A stretch of 33,120 nt of DNA from Bacteroidales bacterium. GTDB lineage: Bacteria; Bacteroidota; Bacteroidia; Bacteroidales; Paludibacteraceae. A model generated the notes under the pieces. It was not told the origin of the DNA. It saw only the letters and a list, made by a program, of their open reading frames with translations, and did not search any database. The position numbers and the translations under genes were made by a program. How positions within the stretch are numbered: position 1 is the stretch's first letter; each line of letters opens with the position of its first letter. Location of the stretch: the NCBI GenBank assembly GCA_021371875.1, contig JAJFVH010000190.1, positions 1-33,120 on the forward strand, written 5' to 3'. Positions 12,479-32,893 of the stretch are shown piece by piece.

Positions 12479-13738
12479 ATGAACTTACAATCAACGACCG
12501 GCAACTGGAAACAGGCTGCACTTGCCGCCTCACGAACGCTCCATCTCGTTAGCGACGACACAATCGACCAGGTTTTATTGGCATTGGCCAGTGAAGCGGT
12601 CTTCAAATCGGACGAAATTATAGCGGAAAATGCTAAAGATCTGGCTACCTTGGATAAGTCGAATCCGGTGTACGACAGGCTTTTGCTGAGCCGTGAACGT
12701 ATTGAGGGAATTGCCGCCGACATCCGCAATGTTGCCTCCTTGCCTTCGCCACTTGGAAAAAAACTGATGGAGATGAAGCGACCCAATGGGTTGCGGATAT
12801 CAAAAATCACTGTCCCTTTTGGCGTGGTGGGAATTGTTTACGAAGCCCGCCCGAACGTGAGTTTCGATGTTTTTTCACTTTGCCTGAAATCGGGCAATAC
12901 CTGTGTGCTGAAAGGTGGAACCGATGCGTATAAATCGAATGTTGCTATCGTGAAAGTGATTCAATCGGTGTTGGATAAATTCGGATTGGATAAAAACATA
13001 GTAACCCTGCTTCCTGCCGGACGTGAAGCTACAGCCGAGTTGATGAACGCCGTTGGTTTTGTCGATGTGATAATTCCGCGCGGGGGCAAAGGGCTGATTG
13101 AATTTGTGCGCGACAATTCACGCATTCCCGTTATCGAAACCGGAGCCGGTATTTGCCATACTTATTTTGATGAATATGGAGACTTGGATAAGGGAAAGAA
13201 TATTATTTTCAATGCCAAAACCCGGCGCGTAAGCGTGTGTAATGCGCTGGATTGCTTGGTGATAAACGAGAAAAGGTTGGCGGATTTACCTTTTTTATGC
13301 GAAAAGCTGGCAACAAAAAATGTAATTATTTATGCCGACGATAAAGCTTATGCCGCATTAACAGGCAAATATCCCGAAGCGTTGTTACAAAAGGCTACCG
13401 ACGAAAGCTTCGGCATAGAGTTTCTGGATTATAAAATGTCGGTTAAAACCGTTTCAACCATTCAGGAAGCCATTGATCACATTTCAATTCATAGCTCGAA
13501 ACACAGCGAATGTATCGTGAGTGAAGATGAACGGAACATAAGCTTATTCGACAGAATGGTAGATGCCGCCTGTGTTTACACCAACGTGTCGACAGCCTTT
13601 ACCGATGGGGCGCAATTTGGACTGGGCGCCGAAATCGGTATCAGCACGCAAAAACTTCATGCCCGCGGGCCGATGGCATTGGCCGAACTTTGTTCGTACA
13701 AATGGATGGTAAAGGGCGAAGGGCAAGTAAGGGCTTAA
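12479..13738 (+). CDS. proA: Gamma-glutamyl phosphate reductase
   Basis: ProA reduces glutamyl 5-phosphate to glutamate semialdehyde with NADPH, directly after ProB. The 419-residue length is normal. Family features include [15 protein letters not shown] at 113-127, the nucleotide-binding region VLKGGTDA at 143-150, [12 protein letters not shown] at 199-210 and the catalytic Cys254 in [10 protein letters not shown]. The ATG at 12479 follows 18 bp after the preceding gene. It is the last gene of the proB cluster; only a weak hairpin follows. Confidence 0.96.
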
Positions 13739-17095: not shown

Positions 17096-17134
17096 TTTGT
17101 TGTTTTTTTTAGCTGCATATAGGAATTATATTTG
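17096..17134 (+). promoter_or_regulatory. Putative promoter of the ribokinase/SusCD locus
   Basis: TATATTTG (17127-17134) is a perfect TAnnTTTG match, with TTTGTTG (17096-17102) upstream; the second TTG of that run leaves a 24-bp spacer. The ATG follows 42 bp after the -7 box. The region between this and the divergent promoter is almost pure A/T. Confidence 0.6.
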
Positions 17135-17176
17135 CATTCGAGAAATGAGAAAACAAAATCAAACTAATTTAATTTT

Positions 17177-18088
17177 ATGAATTCAAAAAAAATAGTTGTT
17201 ATCGGAAGTTGTAATACGGACATGGTGGTAAAATCAGACAGGTTACCGGTTCCAGGAGAAACCGTTCTGGGTGGAGCATTTATGATGAATCCCGGAGGAA
17301 AAGGAGCCAATCAGGCGGTAGCAGTAGCACGACTGGGAGGCAATGTGACTTTTATTTCAAAAACAGGTAACGATTTATTCGGACGCCAATCCATCGAAAT
17401 GTATAGTGACGAAAGCATTAATACCGATTATATTTTTTCAGATCCTCATTTGCCTTCGGGAGTTGCCCTGATTATGGTTGATACGAACGGCGAAAACTGC
17501 ATAGTCGTGGCTTCTGGTGCAAACGGCAGCCTAAGCCCTCAGGACATTGATAAAGCAAAACACATCATTGAAGGTGCCGACATTTTACTCATGCAGCTTG
17601 AAATTCCGATGGACACCGTGGAATATGCTGCAAAACTTGCCCATAGGAAAGGCATCAAAGTAATACTGAATCCTGCACCGGCAGCTTTCCTATCCAATGG
17701 ATTGCTTGAATGTTTGTATGCTATCATTCCGAATAAAACTGAAGCAGAAATGTTATCTGGAATTAAAGTGACAGATTGGGATTCCGCTAAACAGGCTGCC
17801 AAGATTATTAGTGCAAAGGGTGTTGATATTGTTGTAATTACTTTAGGCTCGAAAGGAGCCTTAATTAAAGAAAATAAATCTTATTATGAGGTTCCTGTTG
17901 AAAAAATCAACGCAATCGATACGACTGCTGCAGGCGATACTTTTTGTGGAGCTTTATGTGTTGGCCTCTCTGAAGGACTATCAATAATCGAAGCCGTAAA
18001 AATGGCTAATCGGGCATCAGGGATTACAGTAACCCGTGAAGGAGCACAAACAGCCATCCCCTATCGGAAAGAAATTCATCTTTCATAG
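17177..18088 (+). CDS. rbsK: Ribokinase (PfkB family)
   Basis: Ribokinase phosphorylates D-ribose to ribose 5-phosphate in the cytoplasm. The 303-residue protein has the sugar-binding N terminus (GSCNTDMV, Asp15), the PfkB motif NPGGKGANQA at 38-47, NPAPA at 165-169, and DTTAAGDTF at 248-256 with the catalytic base Asp254. Motif detail (GGKGANQA, NPAPA) favours ribokinase over fructokinase or adenosine kinase. It is the first gene of the ten-gene locus and has a good promoter. Its presence points to ribose as the sugar that the locus delivers. SusC begins 48 bp downstream. Confidence 0.92.
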   Translation: MNSKKIVVIGSCNTDMVVKSDRLPVPGETVLGGAFMMNPGGKGANQAVAVARLGGNVTFISKTGNDLFGRQSIEMYSDESINTDYIFSDPHLPSGVALIMVDTNGENCIVVASGANGSLSPQDIDKAKHIIEGADILLMQLEIPMDTVEYAAKLAHRKGIKVILNPAPAAFLSNGLLECLYAIIPNKTEAEMLSGIKVTDWDSAKQAAKIISAKGVDIVVITLGSKGALIKENKSYYEVPVEKINAIDTTAAGDTFCGALCVGLSEGLSIIEAVKMANRASGITVTREGAQTAIPYRKEIHLS

Positions 18089-18136
18089 CTTGGATTTCAA
18101 TTTTATTTAAATAAACACCTTAAATTGTATGTAAAC

Positions 18137-21091
18137 ATGAAACATCTCATTTGGACAAAAAAAGTTTCTTTATTCAAAAGTATACTTTGCTGTACATTAT
18201 TATTCTTGGCAATAAATACTGTATGGGCTAATAATCCTGTAAATGTACGGGGAACTGTAACAGATGAATCCGGGCAAGCTTTACCTGGGGTAAACATCAG
18301 AGTTAAGAGTAATGATGCCGGCGTAATAACTGGTATAGATGGCAAATACCGGATTGACCTTCCTTCAGAATCTGAAACTTTAATCTTTTCATACATAGGA
18401 TATGCTTCTCAGGAAATAAGTACCAATAAACAAAAAGTTATCGATGTTACTTTATCGGAAGATGTAAAAACAATAGATGAAGTAGTTGTAATCGGTTACG
18501 GTAAAACCACAAAGAAAGAAATCACCGGTTCAATTTCGACTTTGAAATCGGAAAATTTCAATCAGGGTTCATTTTCAAACGCAGCCGGACTTTTACAAGG
18601 GAAAATTGCCGGTTTATCGGTTGTAAATCCCAGTGGTGCTGATCCGCAGGCCGGATACGAAATTATTTTGCGCGGAACCAATACGTTAACATCCGGTCAG
18701 GGACCGCTTATCATCATCGATGGAGTGGCAGGAGCCGACATGAAAAATATCAACTTTCAGGAGGTTGAAACCATCGACGTGTTAAAAGATGGATCTGCAG
18801 CAGCTATTTACGGGACAAGAGGTACGAACGGTGTCGTTATCATAACCACCAAACAAGCCCGAAAAAGTAAAACTACAGTTGAATATCAAGGAGTGGCCAC
18901 TATTCAGGTGGCTCCGCGTATGGTCGAAAATCTGACTGCCGATGAATTCAGAAACGCTATCAAAACCTACGTTCCAACAAGAATCTCCAGTATTTACAGT
19001 GGAAATACCGATTGGTTTAACGAAGTAACCCGTAACGTCCCGTTCAGCCACAAACATAATCTGGCTATTTCTGGCGGAAACGAAGAGTTTTCGCACCGTA
19101 CAACCATCAATGTGGAACAAAACCAGGGATTGCTTAAAAACAACAATCTCAGTAAAATTCTTGCCAAATCGAACATTTCACAAAAGGCACTAAACGGGTT
19201 GCTAAATATCAATTACAATTCGTTTTATTCCATGCGGAAATATAACCCTGCTAATTACGATATTTTTTATCAGGCCTTCATCCACAATCCTACCGAGCCG
19301 GTTTACGATCCTTCGAATGAGTTATCGGGCGGTTACAACCGAGTAGATGGCATCAGTTATTACAATCCGGTGGCTATGCTTAATGAAAAAACTAAAGAGG
19401 GTGAAACCGATGATTTTGGTGGGAATGTACGCGCTTCGTTGAATATTCCTTTTGTTGAAGGTCTGAAATGGGACAATTTTGTTTCGTATGAAAAATCATG
19501 CTGGGAAAACAATAGTTACCTCTCCCGGTATTATCCGAGTGCTATCGGGAGTGATGGCGTAGCCAGTATCGAAAACGGGAGCAATAGCAACATCCAGTAC
19601 GAAAGCACTTTAAATTACATTCACTCATGGAACAATCACACTTTGCAGGCTTTAGCCGGTTATACCTATCAGGAAGAAAACATGCATTATTCGGGCATGT
19701 CGAATAAAGGTTTCGATACTGATTTATATGGGACAAATAATATCGAAGCAGGCACGGCATTAAAGTTGGGAACTGCAGAAATGTATTCGTACAGGGAAAT
19801 GAGTAAACTGATTTCATTTTTCGGACGTGTGATGTATAATTTTGATGAGAAATACCTGCTGTCGGCTTCTATGCGTCGCGAAGGTTCCTCACGTTTCGGC
19901 GATAACCACAAATGGGGTTGGTTTCCGGCGGTAAGCATTGGTTGGCGCATGAATCAGGAATCGTTTATGCAGGATGTGAAATGGATAAACGAACTTAAAA
20001 TTAGAGTAGGATATGGAGCAACAGGAAATCAGGAGTTTTCGAATTACAAATCACTTGTTATGATGGGGCTCGCCGGAAAGTTTTTTTACAATGGAGAATG
20101 GATCAACACTTATCAGCCTGTAAGCAACCCGAACCCCGACCTGCGTTGGGAAAAGAAACATGAGGTGAATGCCGGCATTGATTTCTCGATGTTTGATAAT
20201 AGGATCGGAGGAACAATTGATTATTACTATAGAAAAAGCACTGACTTGCTATACAATTACAATGTGTCGGTTCCACCTTATTTGTACACCGAAATGTTTA
20301 CCAATGTAGGAATTATCAGAAACAGCGGTATCGAAATATCACTGAATGGCTCCCCTGTAAAAACAAAAGATTTTCAGTGGAATACATTTGTGACTTTTAG
20401 CAAGAACCAGAATGCGCTGGAGAAGTTTACCAACGATGAATTTACCAACGGAACTTATAAAACCGGCTGGTTGTCTGGCGATATAGCAGTTTACAGCCAA
20501 CGTATGGAAGAAGGCAAGAGTCTCGGAACTTTTTACGGTCCGGTGTGGATCGGGGTGGATGAATATGGTAATGACAAATTCAAAAACCAAATGCCTGATG
20601 GAAAGGTTCCCGAATCAAAATGGGAAGAAATAGGAAATGCTTATCCAGATTTCACTCTCGGCTGGAGCAATACATTTAACTGGAAAAAATGGAATATGGG
20701 ATTCTCGTTGCGGGCATCGATAGGCGGAGATGTTTTGAATTCATACCGTCTGTATTACGAAAATCTGGGTACTATAGGTTTAAAAAATATTCTGAAATCA
20801 CAGATTGAAAATCCTGAGTTTACGGGCGATGCTCTTTACTCTTCGAAATACATTGAAGATGGTTCATTCCTGAAAATGGATAATATCTCAATCGGATATA
20901 ACATGAAAGTGAATTCGAAATACATTTCAAAATTCAGGATATATGGAGCCGCCCAGGATGTTTTCTGTCTCACCGCCTATCAGGGAGTAAACCCCGAAGT
21001 GTCATTGAGCGGACTGGAACCCGGAATTGAATCAAGAAGTTATTACCCTGTAACTACGAGCATAACTTTAGGAATAAACATTACATTCTAA
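18137..21091 (+). CDS. susC: SusC/RagA-family TonB-dependent outer-membrane transporter
   Basis: SusC-type proteins are 22-strand outer-membrane barrels that import bulky ligands captured by the SusD lid, driven by TonB-ExbBD. From ATG 18137 there are 984 residues. A signal peptide ends near VWA-NN (residue 31). A carboxypeptidase-regulatory-like domain is at about 37-108, the TonB box region DEVVVIGYG at 114-122, a plug domain at about 123-242 with LRGTNTL, IIIDGVAGAD and AAIYGTRGTNGVVIITTK, and the barrel to the terminal aromatic residue (LGINITF). It has no N-terminal secretin/STN domain, so ECF-sigma/anti-sigma signalling is unlikely. A TTG four codons upstream is a less likely start. SusD follows 25 bp downstream. 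Confidence 0.97.
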   Translation: MKHLIWTKKVSLFKSILCCTLLFLAINTVWANNPVNVRGTVTDESGQALPGVNIRVKSNDAGVITGIDGKYRIDLPSESETLIFSYIGYASQEISTNKQKVIDVTLSEDVKTIDEVVVIGYGKTTKKEITGSISTLKSENFNQGSFSNAAGLLQGKIAGLSVVNPSGADPQAGYEIILRGTNTLTSGQGPLIIIDGVAGADMKNINFQEVETIDVLKDGSAAAIYGTRGTNGVVIITTKQARKSKTTVEYQGVATIQVAPRMVENLTADEFRNAIKTYVPTRISSIYSGNTDWFNEVTRNVPFSHKHNLAISGGNEEFSHRTTINVEQNQGLLKNNNLSKILAKSNISQKALNGLLNINYNSFYSMRKYNPANYDIFYQAFIHNPTEPVYDPSNELSGGYNRVDGISYYNPVAMLNEKTKEGETDDFGGNVRASLNIPFVEGLKWDNFVSYEKSCWENNSYLSRYYPSAIGSDGVASIENGSNSNIQYESTLNYIHSWNNHTLQALAGYTYQEENMHYSGMSNKGFDTDLYGTNNIEAGTALKLGTAEMYSYREMSKLISFFGRVMYNFDEKYLLSASMRREGSSRFGDNHKWGWFPAVSIGWRMNQESFMQDVKWINELKIRVGYGATGNQEFSNYKSLVMMGLAGKFFYNGEWINTYQPVSNPNPDLRWEKKHEVNAGIDFSMFDNRIGGTIDYYYRKSTDLLYNYNVSVPPYLYTEMFTNVGIIRNSGIEISLNGSPVKTKDFQWNTFVTFSKNQNALEKFTNDEFTNGTYKTGWLSGDIAVYSQRMEEGKSLGTFYGPVWIGVDEYGNDKFKNQMPDGKVPESKWEEIGNAYPDFTLGWSNTFNWKKWNMGFSLRASIGGDVLNSYRLYYENLGTIGLKNILKSQIENPEFTGDALYSSKYIEDGSFLKMDNISIGYNMKVNSKYISKFRIYGAAQDVFCLTAYQGVNPEVSLSGLEPGIESRSYYPVTTSITLGINITF

Positions 21092-21116
21092 TCAATTGAA
21101 AATTATCAATATCATC

Positions 21117-22640
21117 ATGAAAAAAAGCATATTTCTATCCATCATATTATCGGGACTTTTATTTGTAAGTTGTACCGATCTGACAGAAACGGTTTATTCA
21201 GATATACCAATGGATCAGTTTTTCACAAGTGAGAAAGCGTTGTTGATGAATGCCGGAAGAGCATATACCAAACTGCAACCTTACCCTGAAGAACAGAAAT
21301 TATGGTCGCTTATGACCGTAAGCTCGGACGAATGTGTGATTCCCGCCCGTGAAGATGGCGAATGGTGGGACAACGGGCGCTGGGACGAAATACAAATGCA
21401 TAATGTATCCTCAGCCAATAAAATCAACCGTCAGGCATGGGAATTTGTCTTTGGTGGAATTACAGCTTGTAACGAAGTTCTTTACGAAACCGAAAGTTCA
21501 CCTTACGATTTCCCCGGGAAAAACAAAATTATGGCTGAAATTAAAGTGCTGCGTGCCTTGTTTTATTATTGGGGGATGGATGCCTGGGGCGATATTCCTT
21601 TTGCAACCGACTTTACCGACAAAACATTACCTCCAAAGAAATCACGCGCATTTATTTACGATTTCGTAGAAAAAGAAGTTAAAGACAATATCAGTTACCT
21701 TGACGAAGTTCCTACCTCCGAAAATTATGGTCGCGTAACCAAAGGCATGGCTTTCACCCTGCTTGCAAAATTGTACCTGAATGCCAATGTATGGAAAGGA
21801 ACTCCACACTGGGATGATGCCGAAAAAATGTGCGACAGTGTAATAAACAAAAATCATTATCAGTTGGAAAACAACTATTTCGACAACTTCAAGATCAATA
21901 ATGAAAGTTCAAAGGAAAATATTTTTGTAATCGTATATAATTCCACAATGACTACAGAATATTTTTACTGGTACGACCTTACATTGAATTCAATGAGCCG
22001 TTACACCTACAATCTGAATGATACACCTTGGGACGGTTTTATGACTACACCCGATTTCTTCAAATCTTATTCCGACACCGACAAGCGAAAGAAATCATGG
22101 CTCTACGGTCAGCAATATGATGCAACCGGTAAAAAACTTTTCGAAATTGCAGGGACGGGAGATACTCTCTGGTTTGCTTATAATCCTGATTTTCCAGAGT
22201 CAAAATATAAATCGCGCCACAAATGGGATGGAGCACGCTGCGCTAAATACGAATTTCAAACGAGCGGGCTGCAATACGATGTGGTGGATATGGAAAACGA
22301 TTTTGTGCTTTTCAGGTATGCCGATGTCGTGATGATGAAAGTCGAATGTATGATGCGTCAAAACCGTACTGCCGAGGCTGTTGAATTACCTGATTTTAAA
22401 ACATTAAGAACCCGTGTGGGTCTTGCGCCTTACACTGTTTCTGAACTTACATTAAATGAGTTGCTCTCAGAACGCGGACGTGAGTTTGCTTGGGAAGGAC
22501 ATCGCCGGCAGGATTTACTCCGTTTCGAAAAATGGAACGACAAATGGTGGGGAAAACCTTATACCACCACGCAAAGGGTGTTCCCGATACCGCAAACAGC
22601 TGTTGACACCAATCCGAACCTGGCAGGAAATGCTCAGTAA
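21117..22640 (+). CDS. susD: SusD/RagB-family outer-membrane ligand-binding lipoprotein
   Basis: SusD-like proteins cap the SusC barrel and bind the imported ligand outside the cell. From ATG 21117 the protein has 507 residues and a lipoprotein signal with Cys19 (FVSCTD); the acidic residues after Cys suit surface export. The family's helical TPR core is seen in IKVLRALFYYWGMDAWGDIP, ready for the conserved WGDIP phrase. The C-terminal SusD signature is in LLSERGREFAWEGHRRQDLLRF, split here by the usual 20-residue span. An upstream TTG in frame is ignored because the signal peptide starts at the ATG. Trp-rich segments near residues 75-90 may be part of the ligand site. Confidence 0.96.
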   Translation: MKKSIFLSIILSGLLFVSCTDLTETVYSDIPMDQFFTSEKALLMNAGRAYTKLQPYPEEQKLWSLMTVSSDECVIPAREDGEWWDNGRWDEIQMHNVSSANKINRQAWEFVFGGITACNEVLYETESSPYDFPGKNKIMAEIKVLRALFYYWGMDAWGDIPFATDFTDKTLPPKKSRAFIYDFVEKEVKDNISYLDEVPTSENYGRVTKGMAFTLLAKLYLNANVWKGTPHWDDAEKMCDSVINKNHYQLENNYFDNFKINNESSKENIFVIVYNSTMTTEYFYWYDLTLNSMSRYTYNLNDTPWDGFMTTPDFFKSYSDTDKRKKSWLYGQQYDATGKKLFEIAGTGDTLWFAYNPDFPESKYKSRHKWDGARCAKYEFQTSGLQYDVVDMENDFVLFRYADVVMMKVECMMRQNRTAEAVELPDFKTLRTRVGLAPYTVSELTLNELLSERGREFAWEGHRRQDLLRFEKWNDKWWGKPYTTTQRVFPIPQTAVDTNPNLAGNAQ

Positions 22641-22684
22641 ATAAGAAAACGATAAATAAATCTTTCACAATCAAATTTTCAGAT

Positions 22685-24661
22685 ATGAAACGAAGTACAA
22701 TCTTATTTTTAGCAATGATTCCTTTATTCGTATGTGCTCAAAACACAAAAACAATATCGAAAGAAGAATTGCATGATAAAATTGCCGGTGCCTGGCTTGG
22801 GCAAATGATAGGTAACTTTTACGGGTTACCGTTCGAAAATAAATTTATCGACCAGCCTGGAGATGATGATAAATGGCCATACGGATATACAAAAAATCTG
22901 GATAAACTAGCCCGTACCGGCGGAGCATTTTCAGATGACGATACCGATTTTGAGTATATCTACTTACTCCAAATGGAAAAATATGGTTGTGAACCTACTT
23001 ATGCGCAATTGCGCGAAGCTTGGATGTATCACGTTCGCGACAGGGTTTGGTTGGCGAACCGGGCGGCACTTGGACTTATGTATCATGGCTTTACACCACC
23101 GTTTACCGGAATGAAGTCGCTCAATCCGCACTGGTATCAGATCGATCCTCAACTTATCAACGAGATTTGGTCTTATACAGCACCGGGAATGATTACTTAT
23201 GCTGCACAAAAATCGGACTGGGCAGCACGCATTACCAGTGACGACTGGGCGGCTGATCCAACTGTACATTACGGAGCCATGTATGCCAACGCTTTTTTTG
23301 AAAAAGATATTGAAAAACTCGTATTGAATGCATTGCAACAGCTTCCCGCTGAAAGTAGATATGCCCAAACCGTAAAAGAAATGGTGGCTTTATATAAAAA
23401 GTATCCCAACGACTGGAAAAAATCCCGTCAGGAAATGGCAAAAAAATACTATTTAAACGAAAATCCCATGACAAAAACCATCTGGAATGCCAACCTGAAT
23501 GGTGCTTGTGGTGTTTTGTCGTTACTTTATGGTAAAGGCAATTTTCAGCTGACTATGGATCTGGCTTGTGCTATGGGCTTTGATGCTGATAACCAAACGG
23601 CAACTGTCGGAGGTTTACTCGGCATTATGTATGGAGCCAAAGCTCTGCCTAAAGATTTGCTGTGTCCGATTGAAGGATGGACAGAACCATTTAATGATAA
23701 ATACATCAACGTTACCCGATATGACATGCCTGATGCCCATATTTCGGATATGATTAACAGAACTGTAAAACAAGCAGAAGATGTGATTTTGAAAAACGGC
23801 GGGAAAAAAACAGGAAAAAAAGGGAAAGAATATCTGGCAATCAATACTAAAGCTTCATTCAATGTGCCGCTGGAGTTTTATATCGGTCCCAATCCTGTTA
23901 TGATGGTGGGTAAGCCTGTTGAATATACATTTTATACAGCAGCCAATCAAAACTACAACTGGGAACTAAAATCGGGACAAATGCCCGAAGGTATTGTTTT
24001 TGAAAAAGGAAAAATTAGCGGAACACCTCGCAAAGCCGGAAAATATAATATTGAGTTGAGTCTGGACAACAGAAAAACAACTTTGCTGAAATCTTTTGAA
24101 TTGTTAGTGCGCACTAATAATATCGCACCAAAAGCCGACACCATCTTCACTAATGTTCGCGTATTAAATACCGAGGTGTTGGATTCCACCTGGTACACTT
24201 TCGGAAAACCCATGTATGCAAAATCGGTTGACGTAATCAATGATGGTATTCTCTTGGGCGAAGGTTCGGTATTTTACAGTCTGGCAGCCAAATCAAATCT
24301 TCCGAAAGTAGATTATTTTGGTTATGGATGGAAAGAAGAAAAAGAAATCAACATGATAGCTCTGCATCTGGGCAGTATGGAAGAATTCGGTGGCTGGTGG
24401 AGCTCATTCAATATCCAGTATCAGGATAAGAACGGTAAGTGGGTGGCTGTTCCTAAGTTTAAGAGCACTCCCGAGTTACCCGAAACTGATATTGTATTTT
24501 TCCAACCTCATTTTGTGGAATATATTTTTGAATTCAAACCGGTAAAAACAAAAGCAATACGTATTATCGGAGACACCAAAGTTCAGGCGCATTGGCACAA
24601 ATACACCAAAAATGTTTCAGCATTCAGTTCAATAACCGAATTAAGTGTTTTCGAAAAATAA
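22685..24661 (+). CDS. Exported ADP-ribosylglycohydrolase-fold protein with Ig-like and C-terminal beta-sandwich domains
   Basis: ARH/DraG-family enzymes cleave ADP-ribose or related ribosyl N- or O-glycosidic links with two Mg ions. This 658-residue protein has a signal peptide (cut near VCAQ, residue 19). The ARH domain covers about 28-375: the N-terminal acidic motif is FSDDDTD (Asp84-Asp88) and the C-terminal one is GFDADNQTATVGG (Asp300, Asp302). An Ig-like domain at about 402-476 (YNWELKSGQMPEG...ISGTPRKAGKY) and a discoidin-like beta-sandwich at about 505-658 follow; both could bind glycans. Cytoplasmic ARH proteins lack such parts. It is the first and most divergent of three in the locus, 44 bp after susD. 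The substrate is inferred only, as ribosylated material. Confidence 0.85.
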   Translation: MKRSTILFLAMIPLFVCAQNTKTISKEELHDKIAGAWLGQMIGNFYGLPFENKFIDQPGDDDKWPYGYTKNLDKLARTGGAFSDDDTDFEYIYLLQMEKYGCEPTYAQLREAWMYHVRDRVWLANRAALGLMYHGFTPPFTGMKSLNPHWYQIDPQLINEIWSYTAPGMITYAAQKSDWAARITSDDWAADPTVHYGAMYANAFFEKDIEKLVLNALQQLPAESRYAQTVKEMVALYKKYPNDWKKSRQEMAKKYYLNENPMTKTIWNANLNGACGVLSLLYGKGNFQLTMDLACAMGFDADNQTATVGGLLGIMYGAKALPKDLLCPIEGWTEPFNDKYINVTRYDMPDAHISDMINRTVKQAEDVILKNGGKKTGKKGKEYLAINTKASFNVPLEFYIGPNPVMMVGKPVEYTFYTAANQNYNWELKSGQMPEGIVFEKGKISGTPRKAGKYNIELSLDNRKTTLLKSFELLVRTNNIAPKADTIFTNVRVLNTEVLDSTWYTFGKPMYAKSVDVINDGILLGEGSVFYSLAAKSNLPKVDYFGYGWKEEKEINMIALHLGSMEEFGGWWSSFNIQYQDKNGKWVAVPKFKSTPELPETDIVFFQPHFVEYIFEFKPVKTKAIRIIGDTKVQAHWHKYTKNVSAFSSITELSVFEK

Positions 24662-24678
24662 TATAGAATCAAGATATT

Positions 24679-26298
24679 ATGACAAAAAAAATCATTATTC
24701 CACTTTTGTGCCTGTTGACTTTAAGCTCTTACGGCAAAAGTAAGAAAGAAAGTTTTCCAGAGACAGTAAGCTTGACCAAAGAGGTTTTAATAGACAAAAT
24801 AAAGGGAGGTTGGGCAGCACAGACCATTGGTGTAGTATATGGAGCTCCTACAGAATTTAAATTTACCGGAACAACCATTCAGAATTACCAACCAATACCA
24901 TGGTCAGATGGCTATGTAAAATACTGGTGGGATAAAAAACCCGGATTGTTTGACGATATCTATAACGATCTTACTTTTGTTGAAACATTTGAAATAGAAG
25001 GGCTCAATTGTCCGATTGATACACTGGCACAACGTTTTGCTTGGGCAGAATATCATTTGGCGCATGCCAACCAGGCAGGACGTTACAATATCCGCAACGG
25101 CATAATGCCACCGGAATCCGGACATTGGTTGAATAATCCGCATGCCGATGATCTTGATTTTCAGATTGAAGCGGATTTTATCGGTTTAATGGCTCCAGGT
25201 ATGGTTAACCAAGCCATGGACATAGCCAACCGAGTGGGACATATTATGAACAGTGGTGATGGTTTTTATGGAGGTGCTTTTGTTTCAGCTCTGTATTCAA
25301 ATGCATTTATTTCGTCGGATGTTGAAGCTGTTTTAAATAATTCTCTTTCTGTAATTCCTGTCGAAAGTCAATTCCATCAATGTATTGCCGATGTCATCAG
25401 CGTATATAAAATATACCCCGATGACTGGGAACAATGCTGGTTTGAGTTGCATAAAAAATGGAACAAAGACGTGGGTTGCCCCAAAGGAGTTTTCCTGAGT
25501 TTCAATATCGATGCGAAAATAAATTCGGCTTACATCGCATTGGCTTTGCTTTACGGCAAAGGTGATTTTTCAAAATCAATGGAAATAGCTGTGCGCTGTG
25601 GACAGGATTCTGATTGCAATCCAGCATCAGTAGGAGGGATTCTTGGTGTGATGTGTGGTTATTCCAACATCCCGAAATTCTGGCTTAATCCTCTTAAAGA
25701 AATCGAACAGTTAAATTTTGAAGGAACAACTGTTTCGCTCAACAGAGCTTACAATTTAAGTTTTAAACATGCGCTTACACTGATCGAAAAGAACGGAGGT
25801 GAAATTTCGGAAAAGGATGTGACCATAAAAACTCAAAAAACGAAAATTCTTCCACTGGAACAGAATTTTAAAAAAACTATTCCGATCTTCCGCGAACGTA
25901 AAGACTGCTTTTTCACCGACGAATATACTTTTGATTTCAATGGAAACGGTTTTGTGGTTTATGGAAACCTGGTATCCACAAAAAGTGTTACAGCCGATTA
26001 TATTCACCGTGTCTCCATCCGTCACATTGGGTCAGAAGTATTCGGGATGGCAGAACCCAACGATAATTATGTCGCTGAAATGGAAATTTGGATCGATGGA
26101 GAATTGGATAAAACAATCAAGTTACCCATGAAAAACACTTCACGCCGACTTGAGCCCGCATGGAAATACCTGTTGGCTGAAGGAAAGCATCAAGTGAAAT
26201 TGAAATGGTTAAACCGGGCTAAAGATTATCTGATCAGGGTAAATGATATTATTTATTATTCCGAAAACAAACTGCCGAGTAACTATTATCATAATTAA
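24679..26298 (+). CDS. Exported ADP-ribosylglycohydrolase-fold protein, second copy
   Basis: The 539-residue protein has a signal peptide ending near SSYG (residue 19). The ARH domain (about 33-370) starts IKGGWAAQTIGVVYG. Its acidic metal motifs are FDDIYNDLTFVE (Asp92, Asp93, Asp97) and GQDSDCNPAS (Asp310, Asp312). In DraG-type enzymes the second motif is usually GGDTDTN, so a Cys replaces Thr here. The shared stretch NNPHADDLDFQIEADF adds more acidic residues. The C-terminal ~170 residues look like a beta-sandwich (FNGNGFVVYG, MEIWIDGELDKTIKLP). It is a close paralogue of the next gene and lies 17 bp after the first copy. Confidence 0.85.
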   Translation: MTKKIIIPLLCLLTLSSYGKSKKESFPETVSLTKEVLIDKIKGGWAAQTIGVVYGAPTEFKFTGTTIQNYQPIPWSDGYVKYWWDKKPGLFDDIYNDLTFVETFEIEGLNCPIDTLAQRFAWAEYHLAHANQAGRYNIRNGIMPPESGHWLNNPHADDLDFQIEADFIGLMAPGMVNQAMDIANRVGHIMNSGDGFYGGAFVSALYSNAFISSDVEAVLNNSLSVIPVESQFHQCIADVISVYKIYPDDWEQCWFELHKKWNKDVGCPKGVFLSFNIDAKINSAYIALALLYGKGDFSKSMEIAVRCGQDSDCNPASVGGILGVMCGYSNIPKFWLNPLKEIEQLNFEGTTVSLNRAYNLSFKHALTLIEKNGGEISEKDVTIKTQKTKILPLEQNFKKTIPIFRERKDCFFTDEYTFDFNGNGFVVYGNLVSTKSVTADYIHRVSIRHIGSEVFGMAEPNDNYVAEMEIWIDGELDKTIKLPMKNTSRRLEPAWKYLLAEGKHQVKLKWLNRAKDYLIRVNDIIYYSENKLPSNYYHN

Positions 26299-26308
26299 AA
26301 GAAAACTT

Positions 26309-27865
26309 ATGAGAAACACAATTATATATACATTTATCGTACTGGTTTTTGTAGCTTGTACGGGGAAATCCCTAACAAAGGAAATTGATTACAACGCTTC
26401 AGTTACCATCCCGATCGATGTATTGAAAGATAAAATTAAAGGCGGTTGGGCAGGCCAAACCATAGGTTGTACTTATGGCGGACCAACAGAATTTAAATAC
26501 CGCGGAGCAATGATTCACGACCAAACTCCGATTATCTGGTACGACGACTATGCCAAAGAAACATTCGAAATTGACCCAGGATTGTACGACGATGTTTATA
26601 TGGATCTGACTTTTGTTGAAGTAATTGAAAAATACGGACTTGATGCTCACGTTGATTCGTTTGCACAGGCATTTGCCAATGCAGAATATAAATTATGGCA
26701 CGCCAATCAAGCTGCCCGTTATAATATTCTGAACGGCATTATGCCTCCGGCTTCGGGGCACTGGATTAACAATCCACATGCTAATGATATAGATTTTCAG
26801 ATCGAAGCTGACTTTGCAGGAATGTTGACCCCGGGAATGATCAATATCGGCTCTGAAATTTCGGACAAAATCGGACATATCATGAATTATGGTGATGGTT
26901 GGTATGGTGGCGTTTATATGTCAGCTCTTTACAGTCTCGCTTTTGTGTCCGAGGACATTCCCTTTATTGTAAGCGAAGCCCTGAAGACCATTCCTGCTCG
27001 AAGCAAATTTCGTTTGTGTATTGAAGATGTCATCCGTTTACACAAACAATATCCCGACGACTGGAAAAAAAGCTGGCTTGAAATAGAAAATAACCACGCT
27101 TTCGAAATCGGTTGTCCCGAAGGTGTTTTTAATGCTTTCAATATCGATGCAACTATCAATTCGGCTTATGTGATACTTGGGTTACTTTATGGTGAAGGTG
27201 ATTTCTACAAAACCATGGACATTGCAACAAGAGCTGGGCAAGATTCGGATTGTAATCCGGCATCTGCTGCAGGAATTCTGGGTGTGATGTACGGTTACAG
27301 CCGGATACCCCATTATTGGAAACCTGCTATGGAAAAAGTTGAAAATCTTGATTTTCCCTATACCAAAATTTCGCTAAGCAGAATATACGATATTAATCTG
27401 AAAAATATCAAAGAACTGGTGCTGCGAAATGGAGGAAAAGTAAACGACACTTCAGTGACCGTAAAACTACAGGAACCGAAAGAAGTCCGCTGGGAAGAAT
27501 CGTTCACTGGTCATTTCCCTACCGAACGTAGGATGATTAATAAAGAATTTCACGAAAACCCTGTTGAAATAAGCTTTAATGGGAATGGTATAGTTTTGAT
27601 GGGAAGCATAAAACAGCTTCAGCCTGACACCAGTAATTATATTGCTCAGCTGGAGGCCTGTATCGATAGCAAAACAGTTGAAAATTTCAAAATGCCTTTC
27701 GATTATGTTAAGCGCAAATACGATATTTTTCATAAATATCAACTGGAAAACAGAAGTCATAAGTTGGAAATTAAATGGCTGAATCCGCATCCGAAATATG
27801 CTATTCAGACTAAAGATGTGGTGATCTATTCGAATAAAAACCCCGAAAGTAAGCGGCCGTATTAA
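26309..27865 (+). CDS. ADP-ribosylglycohydrolase-fold lipoprotein, third copy
   Basis: From ATG 26309 the protein has 518 residues with a lipoprotein signal (FVAC, Cys17). The frame is open upstream into the preceding gene, but the signal peptide and a 10-bp spacing favour this start. The ARH domain begins IKGGWAGQTIGCTYGG and carries YDDVYMDLTFVE (Asp94, Asp95, Asp99) and GQDSDCNPAS (Asp312, Asp314). It shares with the second copy NNPHA-(N/D)D-(I/L)DFQIEADF and IMN-GDG-YGG, so the two arose by tandem duplication. The beta-rich C terminus (FNGNGIVLMG...KLEIKWLN) matches too. One copy lipid-anchored and one soluble suggests work at different places in the envelope. Confidence 0.85.
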   Translation: MRNTIIYTFIVLVFVACTGKSLTKEIDYNASVTIPIDVLKDKIKGGWAGQTIGCTYGGPTEFKYRGAMIHDQTPIIWYDDYAKETFEIDPGLYDDVYMDLTFVEVIEKYGLDAHVDSFAQAFANAEYKLWHANQAARYNILNGIMPPASGHWINNPHANDIDFQIEADFAGMLTPGMINIGSEISDKIGHIMNYGDGWYGGVYMSALYSLAFVSEDIPFIVSEALKTIPARSKFRLCIEDVIRLHKQYPDDWKKSWLEIENNHAFEIGCPEGVFNAFNIDATINSAYVILGLLYGEGDFYKTMDIATRAGQDSDCNPASAAGILGVMYGYSRIPHYWKPAMEKVENLDFPYTKISLSRIYDINLKNIKELVLRNGGKVNDTSVTVKLQEPKEVRWEESFTGHFPTERRMINKEFHENPVEISFNGNGIVLMGSIKQLQPDTSNYIAQLEACIDSKTVENFKMPFDYVKRKYDIFHKYQLENRSHKLEIKWLNPHPKYAIQTKDVVIYSNKNPESKRPY

Positions 27866-27873
27866 AAACTGAC

Positions 27874-29463
27874 ATGAAATTTAAAATTTCCCATATTCAT
27901 TATTTTGTGCTGTTGTTAACAATAACTGCAGGCATCTTCTTTACGGCCTGTAAATCCACAGAGCCTGAACATGAAGTGCCTGTAGTTAAACGCTATGCTG
28001 AAAGTATAAACTTCCAGAGTAAAATATTGAAACGGCCGGTTCGTTATTCAATTTATCTGCCGGCCGATTACGGAAAAAGTCCCCGCGAATATGCTACGGT
28101 TTATTTACTACACGGGTATGGAGATGATGAAACGGCCTGGGTGAAAGATGGTCAAATTGATAAAATAATTGATGAACTGGAGAAAAACGGGACGATAGCC
28201 CCCATGATTTATGTCATTCCGCAAGGTTACAACAGTTACTATGTAAACCGTTTTAACGGCACTTTGGACTATATGAAAATGTTTACTGAAGAATTTGTGC
28301 CAATGGTCGATTCACTTTATCGCACAAAAAAAGATGCTGCCCAACGGGCCGTGGTTGGTTATTCGATGGGCGGCTACGGAGCATTGATTTTACCTGCGAA
28401 GAATCCGGATATTTTCTCGGTTTCGGTACCTCTGAGTATGTCGTTTCGAACTGACGAACAATATATGCTTGAAACTCAATCGGTCTTCGATACCCAGTGG
28501 GGACCAATATTCGGAGCAACAGGAAGTACTGGAAATGCCCGGTTGACAGATTATTATCTGGCACACAGTCCGTTTCACTTTTTTGAAAAAGAAAATGCCA
28601 GTTCTTTTTCTTCGTTGCGGTTTTTTATCGATTGCGGCGATGACGAGGAATCTTTATCGGTAACTAATAATGCCATGCACGCTTTGTTACGCAACAAAAA
28701 TATAACACATGAATACCGTATGAAAAATGGAGCCCACACATGGGATTACTGGCGTGCAGCCATGCGTGAAGCATTACCCTATATTCAATCCTGTTTTTCG
28801 GGCAATACATATCCGACTGAACCGGTTTTTGCTGTATCGGAAGCTTTTGCAGGAAGCCTGGAGCAAAAAACATACTCAGGGCTGACCCTGAATGTCGATT
28901 TGCCGGTAGATTATAACTCTTCTAAAACAGCCTATCCTGTGCTGTATTTTTATCATAAATCGGAAGGAAGCCGCCTGACCGAGACAAAAAATGTGATGGC
29001 AGTGCTTGATTCGCTTCAAAATGAAAAACCATTTATTCTGATTGAAATTGACACAGATCAAATCACTCATTATCAGATTGATTTCGATGTATTAGTAAGC
29101 TTTATAGATACACAATATCGTACCAAAACCAAAGCACACAACCGAATAGGATTAGGAAATCTGTCGGGAGGAAAGACTATTTACGATGCTTCGGTTCTAT
29201 ATCCCGGTTTGTTGTCCTCGGTCTTTTTGTTCGATGCTTCATTGGAAACAGACTTTGATCTTCCTCAAGCTAAATTTATTTATCTCGATTGCACAGATCA
29301 GGCAGTGAATTTTGAAGCCATACAACAATTGTATGTACAATGCCGAAACAGAGACATCGATCATCAATTCAGGGTGCTCAATGGTAAAAATTCTTTTAAT
29401 TCATTTTTAAATGGACTTGAAAATAGCATTGTGTACATAGGTTTAATGCTCAATAAATTATAA
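27874..29463 (+). CDS. Esterase-D/feruloyl-esterase-like lipoprotein, second domain degenerate
   Basis: The product is a 529-residue lipoprotein (box FTAC, Cys26). Residues about 43-310 are an alpha/beta-hydrolase of the putative esterase (esterase D) family: oxyanion-loop HGYGDDETAW at 80-89, nucleophile Ser164 in GYSMGG, Asp256 in DCGDDEES, and His288 in GAHTWDYWR. Residues about 330-525 repeat the same fold, but the nucleophile position is Leu430 (GNLSGG) and the His position is Asn506 (NGKNSF), so this half is probably inactive. Relatives remove acetyl or feruloyl groups from sugars. It begins 8 bp after the last ARH gene and is paralogous to the next gene. Confidence 0.88.
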   Translation: MKFKISHIHYFVLLLTITAGIFFTACKSTEPEHEVPVVKRYAESINFQSKILKRPVRYSIYLPADYGKSPREYATVYLLHGYGDDETAWVKDGQIDKIIDELEKNGTIAPMIYVIPQGYNSYYVNRFNGTLDYMKMFTEEFVPMVDSLYRTKKDAAQRAVVGYSMGGYGALILPAKNPDIFSVSVPLSMSFRTDEQYMLETQSVFDTQWGPIFGATGSTGNARLTDYYLAHSPFHFFEKENASSFSSLRFFIDCGDDEESLSVTNNAMHALLRNKNITHEYRMKNGAHTWDYWRAAMREALPYIQSCFSGNTYPTEPVFAVSEAFAGSLEQKTYSGLTLNVDLPVDYNSSKTAYPVLYFYHKSEGSRLTETKNVMAVLDSLQNEKPFILIEIDTDQITHYQIDFDVLVSFIDTQYRTKTKAHNRIGLGNLSGGKTIYDASVLYPGLLSSVFLFDASLETDFDLPQAKFIYLDCTDQAVNFEAIQQLYVQCRNRDIDHQFRVLNGKNSFNSFLNGLENSIVYIGLMLNKL

Positions 29464-29465
29464 AA

Positions 29466-31037
29466 ATGAAAACAAAACGATTCATACTTCTGATTTCTTT
29501 TCTGTCTGTTCTATTCAGCCATCAGGCTCAACAGTTTAGAGTACAGGAAAGTCTGAGCTTCGAAAGTAAAATCCTGAATCAGGCAATTAAATACGCAACC
29601 GTACTTCCAGAGGGTTATTTTGAATCGAAAAAATCATATCCGGTGTTGTATCTACTACATGGGTTGGGTGATAATGAAATATCGTGGCTCGAATACGGTC
29701 GTGTGGTACAATATCTCGACTACATGGTGAAAAAGAAGTCCATCGAACCGTTTATTTGTATTATGCCGCAGGGATTCCGCAGTTATTATTCCGATTTTTA
29801 CGATGGCAGTTTTTCGTATCAACAGATGTTTGTCAAAGAACTTGTTCCGTTTATCGATTCGCAATACAGAACACTTCCTTCATCTGGTAAAAGGGCGGTT
29901 ATAGGTTATTCCATGGGTGGATTCGGAGCATTGATGTTGCCGTTAAAACATCCTGATATTTTCAGTGTGAGTATTGCATTAAGTGCTTCTATCCGAACCG
30001 ATGTGCAATATATCAGCGAGGATCAGAACGGCTGGAACGAACAATGGGGTAAAATTTTTGGAGGAGCGAACGAAGTTGGGAAAAGCAGAATTACGGATTA
30101 TTATATGCAGAATTCGCCTTTTTATCTTATCAAAAACAAAAGTTCCGAGGAGTTGAAGAAAATCGCTTTTTTCATCGAGAACGGAGACAAAGAAAACACT
30201 TTATGCCGCAGTAATGAAGAATTACACATGTTGTTGCTCGAAAAGCAAGTGCCGCATATTTATAACATAAAAGCTGGCGGACACGAGTTTAGGTTCTGGC
30301 GCGACGCTTTGCCCGAAGCTTTCCGCTTTGCCGATGCTCAATTCAGAGGAAAGATATACACTCTGGAAACGAAGACGGAAAAACAGGTTTATTCTTTCCC
30401 GAAAACACTTGTGACAGAACAAAAAAGTATTGGCGACAAGACATTTCGGATCATTTATCCTGAAAAACAACAAACAGTTTCCCGTAGTTATCCGACCATT
30501 TATTTTATATCTGATTTAAACGAAAAAAAACAAAACACATTGATAAACAAATATGAAAAAGAGTTTTCCAATGGGGAATTGCCTGCTGTATTATTTTGTT
30601 TTGTCCCTGTAAAATACGGTAGTAGCTTGCTGAATGAAATTATTCCATATATGGAAAAAGGCGGAAAAGCAAGATCGGGACGACGGTTCAGGGCTATTTG
30701 GGGCTATGAAAACGGAGGTGCAGATGTTCTGAAACAGGCTTTTGAAATGGATAGATTTACTGCATGTGCTTTGACTGCAGCCAACTTATCTGCTTCACAG
30801 ACCGAAATTGAGAATCTGATAACAGAAAAAAAGTCACTCCGCAATCAAATTTGGTTGTATGTGGATACGCAGCCGGCAAGCGATGCGTATATTGGGAACG
30901 GATTTTTGCATATCAATCTGAAGGAGCAAGGATTTACACACGAATATCGGGTCAGGACCGATGTTAGTAATTACAACTTTTTACTGTCGGGCTTTATGCC
31001 GGCACTCACATACATTTGTCAGAAATTTCATTATTAA
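29466..31037 (+). CDS. Secreted esterase-D/feruloyl-esterase-like protein, second domain degenerate
   Basis: The 523-residue protein has a signal peptide (cleavage near SHQAQQ, residues 18-23) without a lipobox Cys. The first alpha/beta-hydrolase domain (about 25-295) has HGLGDNEISW at 65-74, nucleophile Ser149 in GYSMGG, Asp241 in ENGDKEN and His273 in GGHEFRFWR. The second (about 300-520) keeps the fold pattern but has GYENGG at 413-418, so Glu415 replaces the nucleophile and Ser501 the His. It starts 2 bp after the previous stop and shares its two-domain plan, so the pair is a tandem duplication of an already fused, half-inactive protein. It is probably soluble in the periplasm, while its sister is membrane-anchored. 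Confidence 0.88.
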   Translation: MKTKRFILLISFLSVLFSHQAQQFRVQESLSFESKILNQAIKYATVLPEGYFESKKSYPVLYLLHGLGDNEISWLEYGRVVQYLDYMVKKKSIEPFICIMPQGFRSYYSDFYDGSFSYQQMFVKELVPFIDSQYRTLPSSGKRAVIGYSMGGFGALMLPLKHPDIFSVSIALSASIRTDVQYISEDQNGWNEQWGKIFGGANEVGKSRITDYYMQNSPFYLIKNKSSEELKKIAFFIENGDKENTLCRSNEELHMLLLEKQVPHIYNIKAGGHEFRFWRDALPEAFRFADAQFRGKIYTLETKTEKQVYSFPKTLVTEQKSIGDKTFRIIYPEKQQTVSRSYPTIYFISDLNEKKQNTLINKYEKEFSNGELPAVLFCFVPVKYGSSLLNEIIPYMEKGGKARSGRRFRAIWGYENGGADVLKQAFEMDRFTACALTAANLSASQTEIENLITEKKSLRNQIWLYVDTQPASDAYIGNGFLHINLKEQGFTHEYRVRTDVSNYNFLLSGFMPALTYICQKFHY

Positions 31038-31062
31038 ATATTCACCATAAAAACACAAAATT

Positions 31063-32070
31063 ATGTTCATAGTAGACAGTTATTTTTTAGCAGTTATTTT
31101 CTGCATGGTTACCATGTTTTGTTGGGGTTCGTGGGGTAATACCCAAAAGCTTGCTGCAAAAACATGGCGTTACGAATTATTTTACTGGGATTATGTAATC
31201 GGTATTTTATTCTTCAGCGTCCTGCTCGGATTTACCATGGGAAGCATAGGTGACGAGGGACGTCCGTTTGTTGAAGATTTGAAACAGGCACGTATGTCCA
31301 ATATCGGTAGTGCCATTTTTGGTGGTATTGTTTTCAATGCGGCTAACATTCTGCTTTCGGCATCTATCTCGTTAGCAGGACTGTCCGTAGCTTTCCCGCT
31401 TGGCGTCGGTATTGCACTCGTACTCGGAGTTTTTGTTAATTATTTCAGTACTCCCAAGGGCGATCCATTCCTTTTGTTTCTGGGTGTGGCTCTTGTTATG
31501 CTTGCCGTTATCTTCAATGGAGTGGCTGCAGGTAAAATGAAAAAAGGTGATAAAGCCAAATCGAATAAAAAAGGCATATCATTAGCTGTTCTTGCCGGCA
31601 TTTTAATGGCGTTTTTCTACCGTTTTGTAGCTGCGGCCATGGATTTGAATAATTTCGAAACCCCTGCCACTGGTATGCTTACACCTTATTCAGCATTCTT
31701 TGTTTTTGCAATCGGTGTTTTTCTGAGTAATTTCATTTTCAATACATTGGTTATGAAAAAACCATTCGATGGAGTACCTGTATCTTACAAAGAATACTTT
31801 AATGGTAATTTCAAAACCCACATGGTGGGCATATTGGGAGGTGTGATATGGGCTTTGGGAACATCCCTGAGTTATATTGCCGCCGGAAAAGCCGGAGCAG
31901 CCATTTCGTATGCACTTGGTCAGGGAGCTCCAATGATCGCAGCTATTTGGGGTGTTTTCGTTTGGAAGGAGTTTAAAGGATCTACTAAACAAACCAATCT
32001 TTTGCTGGGACTCATGTTCCTGTTGTTCTTTAGTGGGTTGGCATTGATTGTTATTTCAGGTGGTAATTAA
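31063..32070 (+). CDS. GRP/RhaT-like sugar permease (DMT superfamily)
   Basis: The 335-residue protein has about ten membrane helices with a charged break at about 164-178 (KMKKGDKAKSNKK) between the two five-helix halves, the plan of the drug/metabolite transporter superfamily. The N terminus contains MVTMFCWGSWGNTQKLA, and the second half GVIWALGTSLSYIAAGKAGAAISYALGQG. These are the phrases of the glucose/ribose porter and rhamnose-proton symporter branches. In a locus headed by ribokinase the most economical substrate is D-ribose, taken from periplasm to cytoplasm. It is 25 bp after the second esterase gene. Confidence 0.88.
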   Translation: MFIVDSYFLAVIFCMVTMFCWGSWGNTQKLAAKTWRYELFYWDYVIGILFFSVLLGFTMGSIGDEGRPFVEDLKQARMSNIGSAIFGGIVFNAANILLSASISLAGLSVAFPLGVGIALVLGVFVNYFSTPKGDPFLLFLGVALVMLAVIFNGVAAGKMKKGDKAKSNKKGISLAVLAGILMAFFYRFVAAAMDLNNFETPATGMLTPYSAFFVFAIGVFLSNFIFNTLVMKKPFDGVPVSYKEYFNGNFKTHMVGILGGVIWALGTSLSYIAAGKAGAAISYALGQGAPMIAAIWGVFVWKEFKGSTKQTNLLLGLMFLLFFSGLALIVISGGN

Positions 32071-32125
32071 AATTACAAACAACATAATTAAATTTTCTAA
32101 TGTAACACTTTAAATTAAAAAAATC

Positions 32126-32893
32126 ATGAAAAAGAATTATTTTTGGGCATTATTTGCCTTTATCGGATTGATTAGTTTCACTTCGTGCGATCCAAAAGAA
32201 GACCCGACAGATGGAGATGAAACAAAAGAAGTACTACGTATAAAAACAATGACCTTTGAGTACGACTGGGGATCAGGTCCTGCAGCAACAAGCTACACTT
32301 ACACTTACGACACTGAAGGCAGGGTTACGAAAGTAGTTGAAGCCGGAGAAGACTGGACAGACGAATTCATACTAGACTGGAGCGAAGCCGGAAAAGTGAA
32401 ATTAGTAAGAGCTGAGTCCGAAAAAAACCGTACATGGATTTTGAATGCAGCCGGTTATGTCTCGAAAATTGAAAATATTTGGGGCGATGGTGGTAACGTT
32501 ACTTTTGATTATGATGCCAATGGATTGATGTCAAAAGCCTACGAAGATTATGGTACGCCGGAATTAAAATCAACTTTCACCCTGCTGAACGGTAATATTA
32601 CAGCTTTCACCCGTGGCGACAGAGTGAAAAACTTTACGTTCTCGAGTGGTGAAAATATCGGTGGTATTTATCAGGTTTTCAATGATAGTTTCATAAGTGA
32701 CTGGCAAGCACACACCGGACTTTTCGGTAAACCTTGTAAAAATCTAAACACGAAAGTGCAATGGTCTGATAAAGAAGATTTCTCTGCTATTTCGTTTGAA
32801 TTTTATGATGATGGAAGTGTAAAGAAAGTAATTCGTTCGGGTTCCGATTGGTACGAGAACTATGTTTATACTTACGAAACGGTAACAAAATAA
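32126..32893 (+). CDS. DUF4595-like surface lipoprotein
   Basis: The 255-residue lipoprotein has the box FTSC (Cys21) followed by the acidic DPKEDPTDGDE, which resembles the Bacteroidota surface-export signal. The body is a run of short beta-hairpin units with YD-repeat character: YTYDTEGRVTKVVE near 59-72, FDYDANGLMSKAYE near 127-140, and FEFYDDGSVKKVI near the C terminus. This pattern is typical of DUF4595 proteins. It has no catalytic motif that I can see. As the last gene of the locus, 55 bp after the permease, it may be a surface ligand-binding accessory (SusE/F-like position), which is inference. Confidence 0.75.
   Translation: MKKNYFWALFAFIGLISFTSCDPKEDPTDGDETKEVLRIKTMTFEYDWGSGPAATSYTYTYDTEGRVTKVVEAGEDWTDEFILDWSEAGKVKLVRAESEKNRTWILNAAGYVSKIENIWGDGGNVTFDYDANGLMSKAYEDYGTPELKSTFTLLNGNITAFTRGDRVKNFTFSSGENIGGIYQVFNDSFISDWQAHTGLFGKPCKNLNTKVQWSDKEDFSAISFEFYDDGSVKKVIRSGSDWYENYVYTYETVTK

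Follow-up and report, generated by a model that had tools for sequence, protein, structure and literature searches.

The window analysed in this study, a 33,120-nucleotide stretch of DNA from a member of the Paludibacteraceae, is one entire contig of a 2.97-Mb, 233-contig assembly with an estimated completeness of 87.9%. It carries ten co-directional genes at 17177-32893, with intergenic gaps of 2 to 55 bases, in the order ribokinase, SusC, SusD, ARH1, ARH2, ARH3, EST1, EST2, permease and lipoprotein (Table 1); ARH stands for the ADP-ribosylglycohydrolase fold and EST for the esterases. Family profile scores and gene coordinates confirmed this run, with all of its families in the places given by the original prediction, which had been made from the window alone. 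For ARH3, a start at 26309 is more likely than that of the listed open reading frame (ORF); with the latter, ARH2 and ARH3 would overlap by 56 bases. Since susC and susD are adjacent and accompanied by co-directional genes for exported degradative enzymes, the locus was classified as a SusC/SusD polysaccharide utilisation locus (PUL). The criteria for export were the N-terminal sequences and a simple lipobox rule. In this study we ask which substrate the locus might serve.

Table 1. Features of the locus, with profile scores in bits (cut-offs: PF03747, 26.2 bits; PF00756, 22 bits; others in brackets).
Feature	Position	Strand	Basis
Divergent 507-aa all-helical repeat protein, candidate regulator	15401..16924	-	no Pfam family; model; position
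Promoter-like pattern, Bacteroidota-type, TTTG-N27-TATATTTG	17096..17134	+	sequence
Ribokinase	17177..18088	+	TIGR02152 376.6 (299.65); PRK11142 357.8 (341)
SusC/RagA TonB-dependent outer-membrane transporter	18125..21091	+	TIGR04056 740.9 (368.25)
SusD-type substrate-binding lipoprotein	21096..22640	+	PF07980, PF14322
ARH1, exported ARH-fold protein, C-terminal extension weakly F5/8 type C-like	22685..24661	+	PF03747 100
ARH2, exported ARH-fold protein	24679..26298	+	PF03747 129.1
ARH3, ARH-fold lipoprotein, C-terminal beta-sandwich	26309..27865 (listed ORF opens 26243)	+	PF03747 125.5
EST1, CE1/feruloyl-esterase-like lipoprotein, first half intact, second degenerate	27874..29463	+	PF00756 117.2
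EST2, second esterase, EST1-like build	29466..31037	+	PF00756 123.2
RhaT/ureide-permease superfamily permease	31063..32070	+	PF07168 97.9 (27), PF06800 42.8
DUF4595-like lipoprotein	32126..32893	+	PF15283 35.9 (34.2)

When this gene order was looked for across Bacteroidota, it was found to recur widely, in many genomes. The loci compared were the best 80 of 226 relatives in the genome collection and 12 stretches from family members, 92 in all (L031-L122). The closest named relative at the locus is a Paludibacter metagenome-assembled genome (MAG; L031), with an ARH3 identity of 82% among the best 80 of the 226. The table of loci holds 88 rows, in which the window itself is not included; L111, which seems to be the same contig as L031, was omitted, as were L119, L121 and L122, which lack an ARH3-type match by the rule of that table. 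The rows comprise 25 two-esterase, 12 one-esterase and 51 no-esterase loci. The class of two one-esterase loci (L038 and L057) is uncertain, as both are cut inside EST1 by the contig end and may have a second esterase, and weak esterase matches (61-87 bits) in the no-esterase loci L074, L075, L077 and L078 were left uncounted. Since an ARH3 relative was found in 13 of 200 genomes drawn from the host family, the trait is patchy within this family. In G172, a same-genus relative, the locus (L113) lacks ARH1.

The ribokinase aligns over nearly its full length with solved ribokinases, including that of Escherichia coli. Asn14, Asp16, the GGKGAN loop, Glu143 and Asp255, the ribose contacts of the E. 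coli enzyme, are identical in the aligned protein of the window. The permease, which scores far below the cut-off of TIGR00776, is a probable ribose importer to judge from its family. Of the 25 two-esterase, 12 one-esterase and 51 no-esterase loci, contig-cut ones included, 19, 11 and 23, respectively, were found to have ribokinase and 23, 9 and 19 to have the permease. Because the ribokinase passes two equivalog cut-offs and because genes for ribokinase and this permease are repeatedly found next to ARH genes, ribose would be one product of the locus, as had been proposed originally. The last position, occupied by a lipoprotein gene in the window, is variable and holds different proteins in the relatives.

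No PF03747 match other than the three ARH genes was found in the assembly. ARH1 is the outlier, with an identity of 28% to ARH3 as against 48% between ARH2 and ARH3. The Glu, DD and DxD columns of the expected two-metal acidic site show no variation in any of the three groups: E51, D84-D86, D300 and D302 in 30/30 aligned ARH1 proteins, E59, D92, D93, D310 and D312 in 34/34 ARH2 proteins, and E61, D94, D95, D312 and D314 in 53/53 ARH3 proteins. These columns are the ones expected to bind metal by comparison with known ARH enzymes; at the positions of the neighbouring Thr ligands, ARH2 and ARH3 have other residues. The invariant acidic columns suggest that the three proteins are active hydrolases of the ARH kind; a substrate, such as ADP-ribose, is not indicated thereby. 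The predicted structure of the window's ARH3 (mean predicted local distance difference test score, pLDDT, 92.5) matched DraG and the known ARH3 best in the PDB. Among its 44 matches with E<=0.001, all but two are of the DraG/ARH kind or are titled just hydrolase or glycohydrolase; the two exceptions are FtsHi motor complexes. Identity to solved ARH members in structural alignments at this threshold was 11-15%, and a sequence search against solved structures led from ARH3 to one ARH relative, weakly, and from ARH1 to none.

In both esterases, the first half is followed by a second, degenerate alpha/beta-hydrolase domain, which profile comparison matched to the first half of the same protein at 99.3% and 99.7%, as against 0.16% for one unrelated control. 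In the second halves of the window's proteins, the catalytic Ser is replaced by Leu or Glu and the His by Asn or Ser. The first halves are PF00756 domains of the CE1 type, and their Ser-Asp-His triads are invariant, S164/D256/H288 in 32/32 and S149/D241/H273 in 23/23 aligned proteins. The term half-inactive, applied to them in the original prediction, is therefore apt by sequence, and its acylated substrate is plausible in view of two esterases with invariant triads. The closest solved relatives of EST1 are the ferulic acid esterases 7xrt and 7xrv (7xrt, profile E 7.4e-65). By the lipobox rule, 38/53 ARH3, 20/34 ARH2, 7/30 ARH1, 22/32 EST1 and 3/23 EST2 proteins are lipoprotein-like; in the window, ARH3 and EST1 are so classed, ARH2 and EST2 are not, and ARH1, with Val before the Cys, is doubtful. 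On the basis of this rule, EST1 and ARH3 are probably attached to a membrane, and EST2 is probably free in the periplasm.

Citrate genes often accompany the loci that have both esterases. This association was missed in the original prediction, as these genes lie off the contig or are absent in the window's genome. Counting the citrate:H+ symporter (CitMHS) or DASS carrier, the CitE-CitD fusion (CitDE) and CitF, at least one citrate gene was found in 17/25 two-esterase loci, 0/12 one-esterase loci and 0/51 no-esterase loci. When the loci were restricted to those with at least 1 kb downstream, the counts were 16/19, 0/8 and 0/47. Among the tabulated loci, citrate genes thus track the presence of EST2. 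L052 would be an eighteenth case if the contig L144 of the same genome, which starts inside an EST2 gene, continues it. CitF or CitDE itself lies within the stretch compared in 7 of the 25 two-esterase loci, and in G172 it follows beyond that stretch (in L123).

The physical linkage, which was observed directly in these relatives, takes several arrangements. In G172 the lipoprotein, DASS, CitDE and CitF genes are consecutive, with gaps of 87, 22 and 23 bases, directly downstream of the locus, and this genome has no CitF, DASS or CitMHS-type match other than these genes. The downstream order is DASS-CitDE-CitF in G172 (L123) and CitDE-CitF-CitMHS in L032 and L048, while in L144 the citrate genes are convergent. 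In L146 (Lutibacter), DASS-CitDE-CitF lie upstream, between the divergent 507-aa gene and the ribokinase gene, on the strand of the latter and 648 bases before it. In L032, CitF scored 531.6 bits (cut-off 501.45) and citMHS 538.9 bits (cut-off 259.7); the CitE-CitD fusion is below its equivalog cut-offs. In addition, an oxaloacetate decarboxylase beta gene in the genome of L046 is immediately followed by CitE-CitD and CitF (L147, 5856-10043), as in citrate fermentation, on a stretch that lacks the ARH locus of this genome.

For 43 of the 88 loci (21/25 two-esterase, 12/12 one-esterase and 10/51 no-esterase), CitF was also searched for at the genome level. A close CitF (61-81% identity) was present anywhere in the genome in 19/21, 0/12 and 0/10 cases, respectively. 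Five one-esterase genomes hold a distant CitF relative (39-44% identity), which was counted as absent; the Fisher p value of 2.6e-10 changes to 7.1e-6 if such relatives are counted as present, and both values treat related loci as independent. The four two-esterase loci outside this search are L033, with a local CitF, L113 (G172), with CitF in the genome, and L031 (G170) and L112 (G055), with none.

These observations led us to a reading that we put just short of an even chance: the locus would be a PUL for a ribosyl conjugate to which citrate, or a closely similar tricarboxylic acid, is bound by an ester or glycosidic link. SusC and SusD would bind and import the conjugate. The lipoprotein EST1 and the periplasmic EST2 would cleave ester bonds, and the ARH-fold enzymes would hydrolyse ribofuranosidic bonds by means of their acidic metal site, so that citrate and ribose would be freed outside the cytoplasm. 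The permease would then take in free ribose, and ribokinase would convert it to ribose 5-phosphate, which feeds metabolism. In many relatives, the freed citrate would enter through the adjoining DASS or CitMHS carrier and be split by citrate lyase (the CitE-CitD fusion and CitF). In the species of the window, the citrate half appears to have been lost or to fall in the portion of the genome that the assembly lacks. A narrower version, in which the ARH set would be the secreted ribofuranosidases of a dedicated uptake pathway for ribose-citrate conjugates abundant enough to sustain a widespread locus, either an undescribed polymer or a compound like ribocitrin, whose structure joins ribose and citrate in agreement with its name, and in which EST2 would be a citryl esterase, seems to us unlikely.

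Several observations weigh against a citrate-bearing substrate. Of the 17 linked loci, 9 show a carrier but no lyase in the sequence examined, and the di- and tricarboxylates transported by DASS carriers are not limited to citrate. Both esterases are present in L035 and L056, in genomes without a close CitF, and L057, the class of which is uncertain as stated above, groups with the two-esterase loci in the ARH3 tree and comes from a genome without CitF. In the same tree, a quick one of 47 rows, the two-esterase loci fall in a few clades; the second esterase requires three changes and CitF four, and there are three independent pairs. The association of the esterases with CitF rests on few independent events, and because three pairs are unable to reach significance, the Fisher values overstate the case. 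The physical linkage in several arrangements is a stronger argument than the statistics. Searches for CitF and DASS gave no match in the window's own genome (G000, 87.9% complete) or in the two sister genomes G170 (89%) and G055 (99%); the citF model found only a 27.5-bit fragment in the first, and a CitMHS-type carrier was found by genome searches on another contig of G170 and in neither G000 nor G055. Citrate use is not supported in the clade of the window, because CitF and DASS are missing from these three genomes. ARH3-like genes also occur with other neighbours (sulfatase, phosphoesterase, GH3 and GHL10, one representative of each being scanned), so that the fold alone leaves the substrate unfixed. 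Finally, we know of no polymer of ribose and citrate, and a partial search of the open literature found no description of such a polymer or of this type of locus.

There is another interpretation of these results, which we consider somewhat unlikely. The substrate may be an acylated pentofuranosyl glycan of plant or microbial origin. The esterases would then strip it of acetyl, feruloyl or succinyl substituents, and the genes for citrate use may be an unrelated neighbouring trait of related lineages. The ferulic acid esterases nearest to EST1 are as this interpretation would have it, and so is the small number of evolutionary events behind the citrate association. The one-esterase loci point the same way: they have no citrate genes (0/12), five of the 12 have ruminant stomach in the record title, and in one (L070) a GH127 gene follows the lipoprotein gene. 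A merely neighbouring trait, however, does not fit well with citrate genes that stand at the locus in several physical arrangements, and at two-esterase loci only, nor with G172, in which they are the only such matches of the genome. In addition, there is no classical glycoside hydrolase among the ten proteins.

Scavenging of nucleosides, NAD or ADP-ribose by a variant of rus, the ribose utilisation locus of Bacteroides thetaiotaomicron, is quite improbable. The window shares ribokinase, SusC/SusD and permease with rus, according to PMC12596196 and the gene list of PMC10434189. The ARH fold is nearest to DraG and ARH3, and nucleoside hydrolases occur in simpler ARH loci. These simpler loci consist of ribokinase, one ARH protein and permease with or without a nucleoside hydrolase, all four being present together in L059 and L106-L108. 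The esterase-bearing loci are different: relatives of nucleoside hydrolases were found in 0/37 of them and in 11/51 esterase-free loci, two of the 11 being weak, in a count based on two queries that other kinds of nucleoside hydrolase could escape. This result fits the earlier view that the locus is not a nucleoside rus locus, and nucleic-acid or nucleoside scavenging was rejected as the best reading for this reason. The earlier contrast of rus with nucleoside hydrolases and this locus with ARH proteins was nevertheless too sharp, as L059 and L106-L108 hold both. Moreover, the ten proteins include no nuclease, phosphatase or pyrophosphatase, and the esterases and citrate genes would be left unexplained. 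ADP-ribosylated and NAD-like substrates, given as examples in the original prediction, were rejected as no gene supports them: none of the ten would act on a pyrophosphate or nicotinamide part, and the family name alone points there.

As to the loci with both enzyme types, ribokinase, nucleoside hydrolase, ARH and permease genes lie in a row in L106-L108 (Aquirufa and kin), a rus-like arrangement with a sulfatase gene downstream. Outside Bacteroidota, a single locus in a MAG of candidate division KSB1 (L074) combines five ARH3-like genes with a permease, a ribokinase and a protein that matches the esterases weakly.

A siderophore or metal-chelate locus, importing a ribosylated iron-citrate-like chelator that enterochelin-esterase-like enzymes dismantle for its carbon, is highly improbable: citrate is a common chelating group, and the enterochelin esterase model gives weak matches to both EST proteins (49.5 and 36.9 bits), but these scores are far under the cut-off of 222, on which ground enterochelin-esterase-type siderophore use was rejected, the proteins are closer to CE1 esterases, and no metal-transport gene is among the ten.

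If a ribosyl-citrate conjugate is indeed the substrate, there would be an unrecognised natural food source that unites ribose and citrate, and the exported ARH-fold proteins would gain a testable role outside ADP-ribose signalling. The term ribose PUL would then become a defined prediction with named enzymes and substrates and with an isolate, Ferruginibacter sp. HRS2-29 (L044), in which the locus and citrate genes are both present. Should citrate be wrong, a widely conserved ribose-type locus with no nucleoside hydrolases and with paired, half-degenerate esterases would still be at hand.

The original prediction described the locus as promoter-led. A promoter-like pattern does stand in the right intergenic spot; the pattern TTTG-N27-TATATTTG, however, occurs six times in the window against 4.1 times expected from shuffles, which is not above chance, and the usual spacer of the Bacteroidota consensus is shorter than N27. 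The prediction had also omitted the divergent 507-aa gene, which usually lies upstream of this gene order in relatives. Where at least 250 bases upstream of ribokinase were available, this gene was found in 12/14 two-esterase, 0/5 one-esterase and 5/23 no-esterase loci, and it probably belongs to the system. Its product has no Pfam match, and its single match in its own assembly is itself. The predicted structure is a helical solenoid (mean pLDDT 83, predicted template modelling score 0.66), the best PDB matches of which are TPR proteins, including Rap-type regulators, and MalT domain III, none at E<=0.001. From its position and fold, it is a candidate regulator of the locus. No known regulator (SusR, hybrid two-component system, or extracytoplasmic function sigma/anti-sigma factor) was found among the 20 window proteins scanned, from ORFs at 4485 onward. 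The 507-aa helical-repeat gene also adjoins some esterase-free ribokinase-ARH loci.

The remainder of the window holds, on the minus strand, an acyl-CoA dehydrogenase gene and two genes for electron-transfer flavoproteins (4485-8330). At 9990-13738, an AA-kinase/PUA gene (ProB-like) and an aldehyde-dehydrogenase-family gene (ProA-like, with a weak Pfam score) flank two ORFs, 226 and 216 aa long, that have no Pfam match. The contig end (32971-33120) is occupied by a repeat of about 150 bases that is dispersed and partly palindromic. A search of the own genome listed 39 matches to it, 25 of them above 130 bits with that of the window included, several at contig ends. The break of the contig right after the lipoprotein gene is probably due to this repeat.

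Finally, the locus was compared with known systems. ARH-type proteins have reportedly been seen in rus-like loci by Glowacki et al. in 2020. The rus locus itself (BT2803-2809) has a nucleoside hydrolase and the regulator RusR in addition to the shared genes, and its permease is given as DMT-type in the gene list of PMC10434189. The window has instead three ARH-fold proteins and two duplicated esterases, and the citrate genes beside the locus in its relatives are a further difference. Ribokinase, SusC/SusD and permease are present, but none of the ten proteins is a nucleoside hydrolase, and the locus was therefore not filed as rus. DUF4969, a rus protein, was matched in 15/247 genomes, one match being over the cut-off, and the single stretch checked has no ARH match. 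Ribocitrin, a Streptomyces metabolite and dextransucrase inhibitor, was tentatively identified by liquid chromatography-mass spectrometry in Streptomyces from freshwater sediment, according to PMC13136089. It is a small molecule, and no evidence ties it to the locus; it shows at most that a ribose-citrate substrate is chemically conceivable. The citrate fermentation module (CitMHS or DASS carrier and CitDEF), not found in the window's genome, is represented by at least one gene beside the two-esterase loci counted above. With the CE1 ferulic acid esterases, EST1 and EST2 share PF00756 and the triad, to which they add the second alpha/beta-hydrolase half without catalytic Ser and His. The ARH fold is known for removing ADP-ribose from proteins, and the ARH proteins of the window share this fold and the conserved acidic columns with DraG, ARH1 and ARH3 of the PF03747 family. 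Unlike these enzymes, they are exported, carry C-terminal extensions and are encoded in a sugar-uptake locus.

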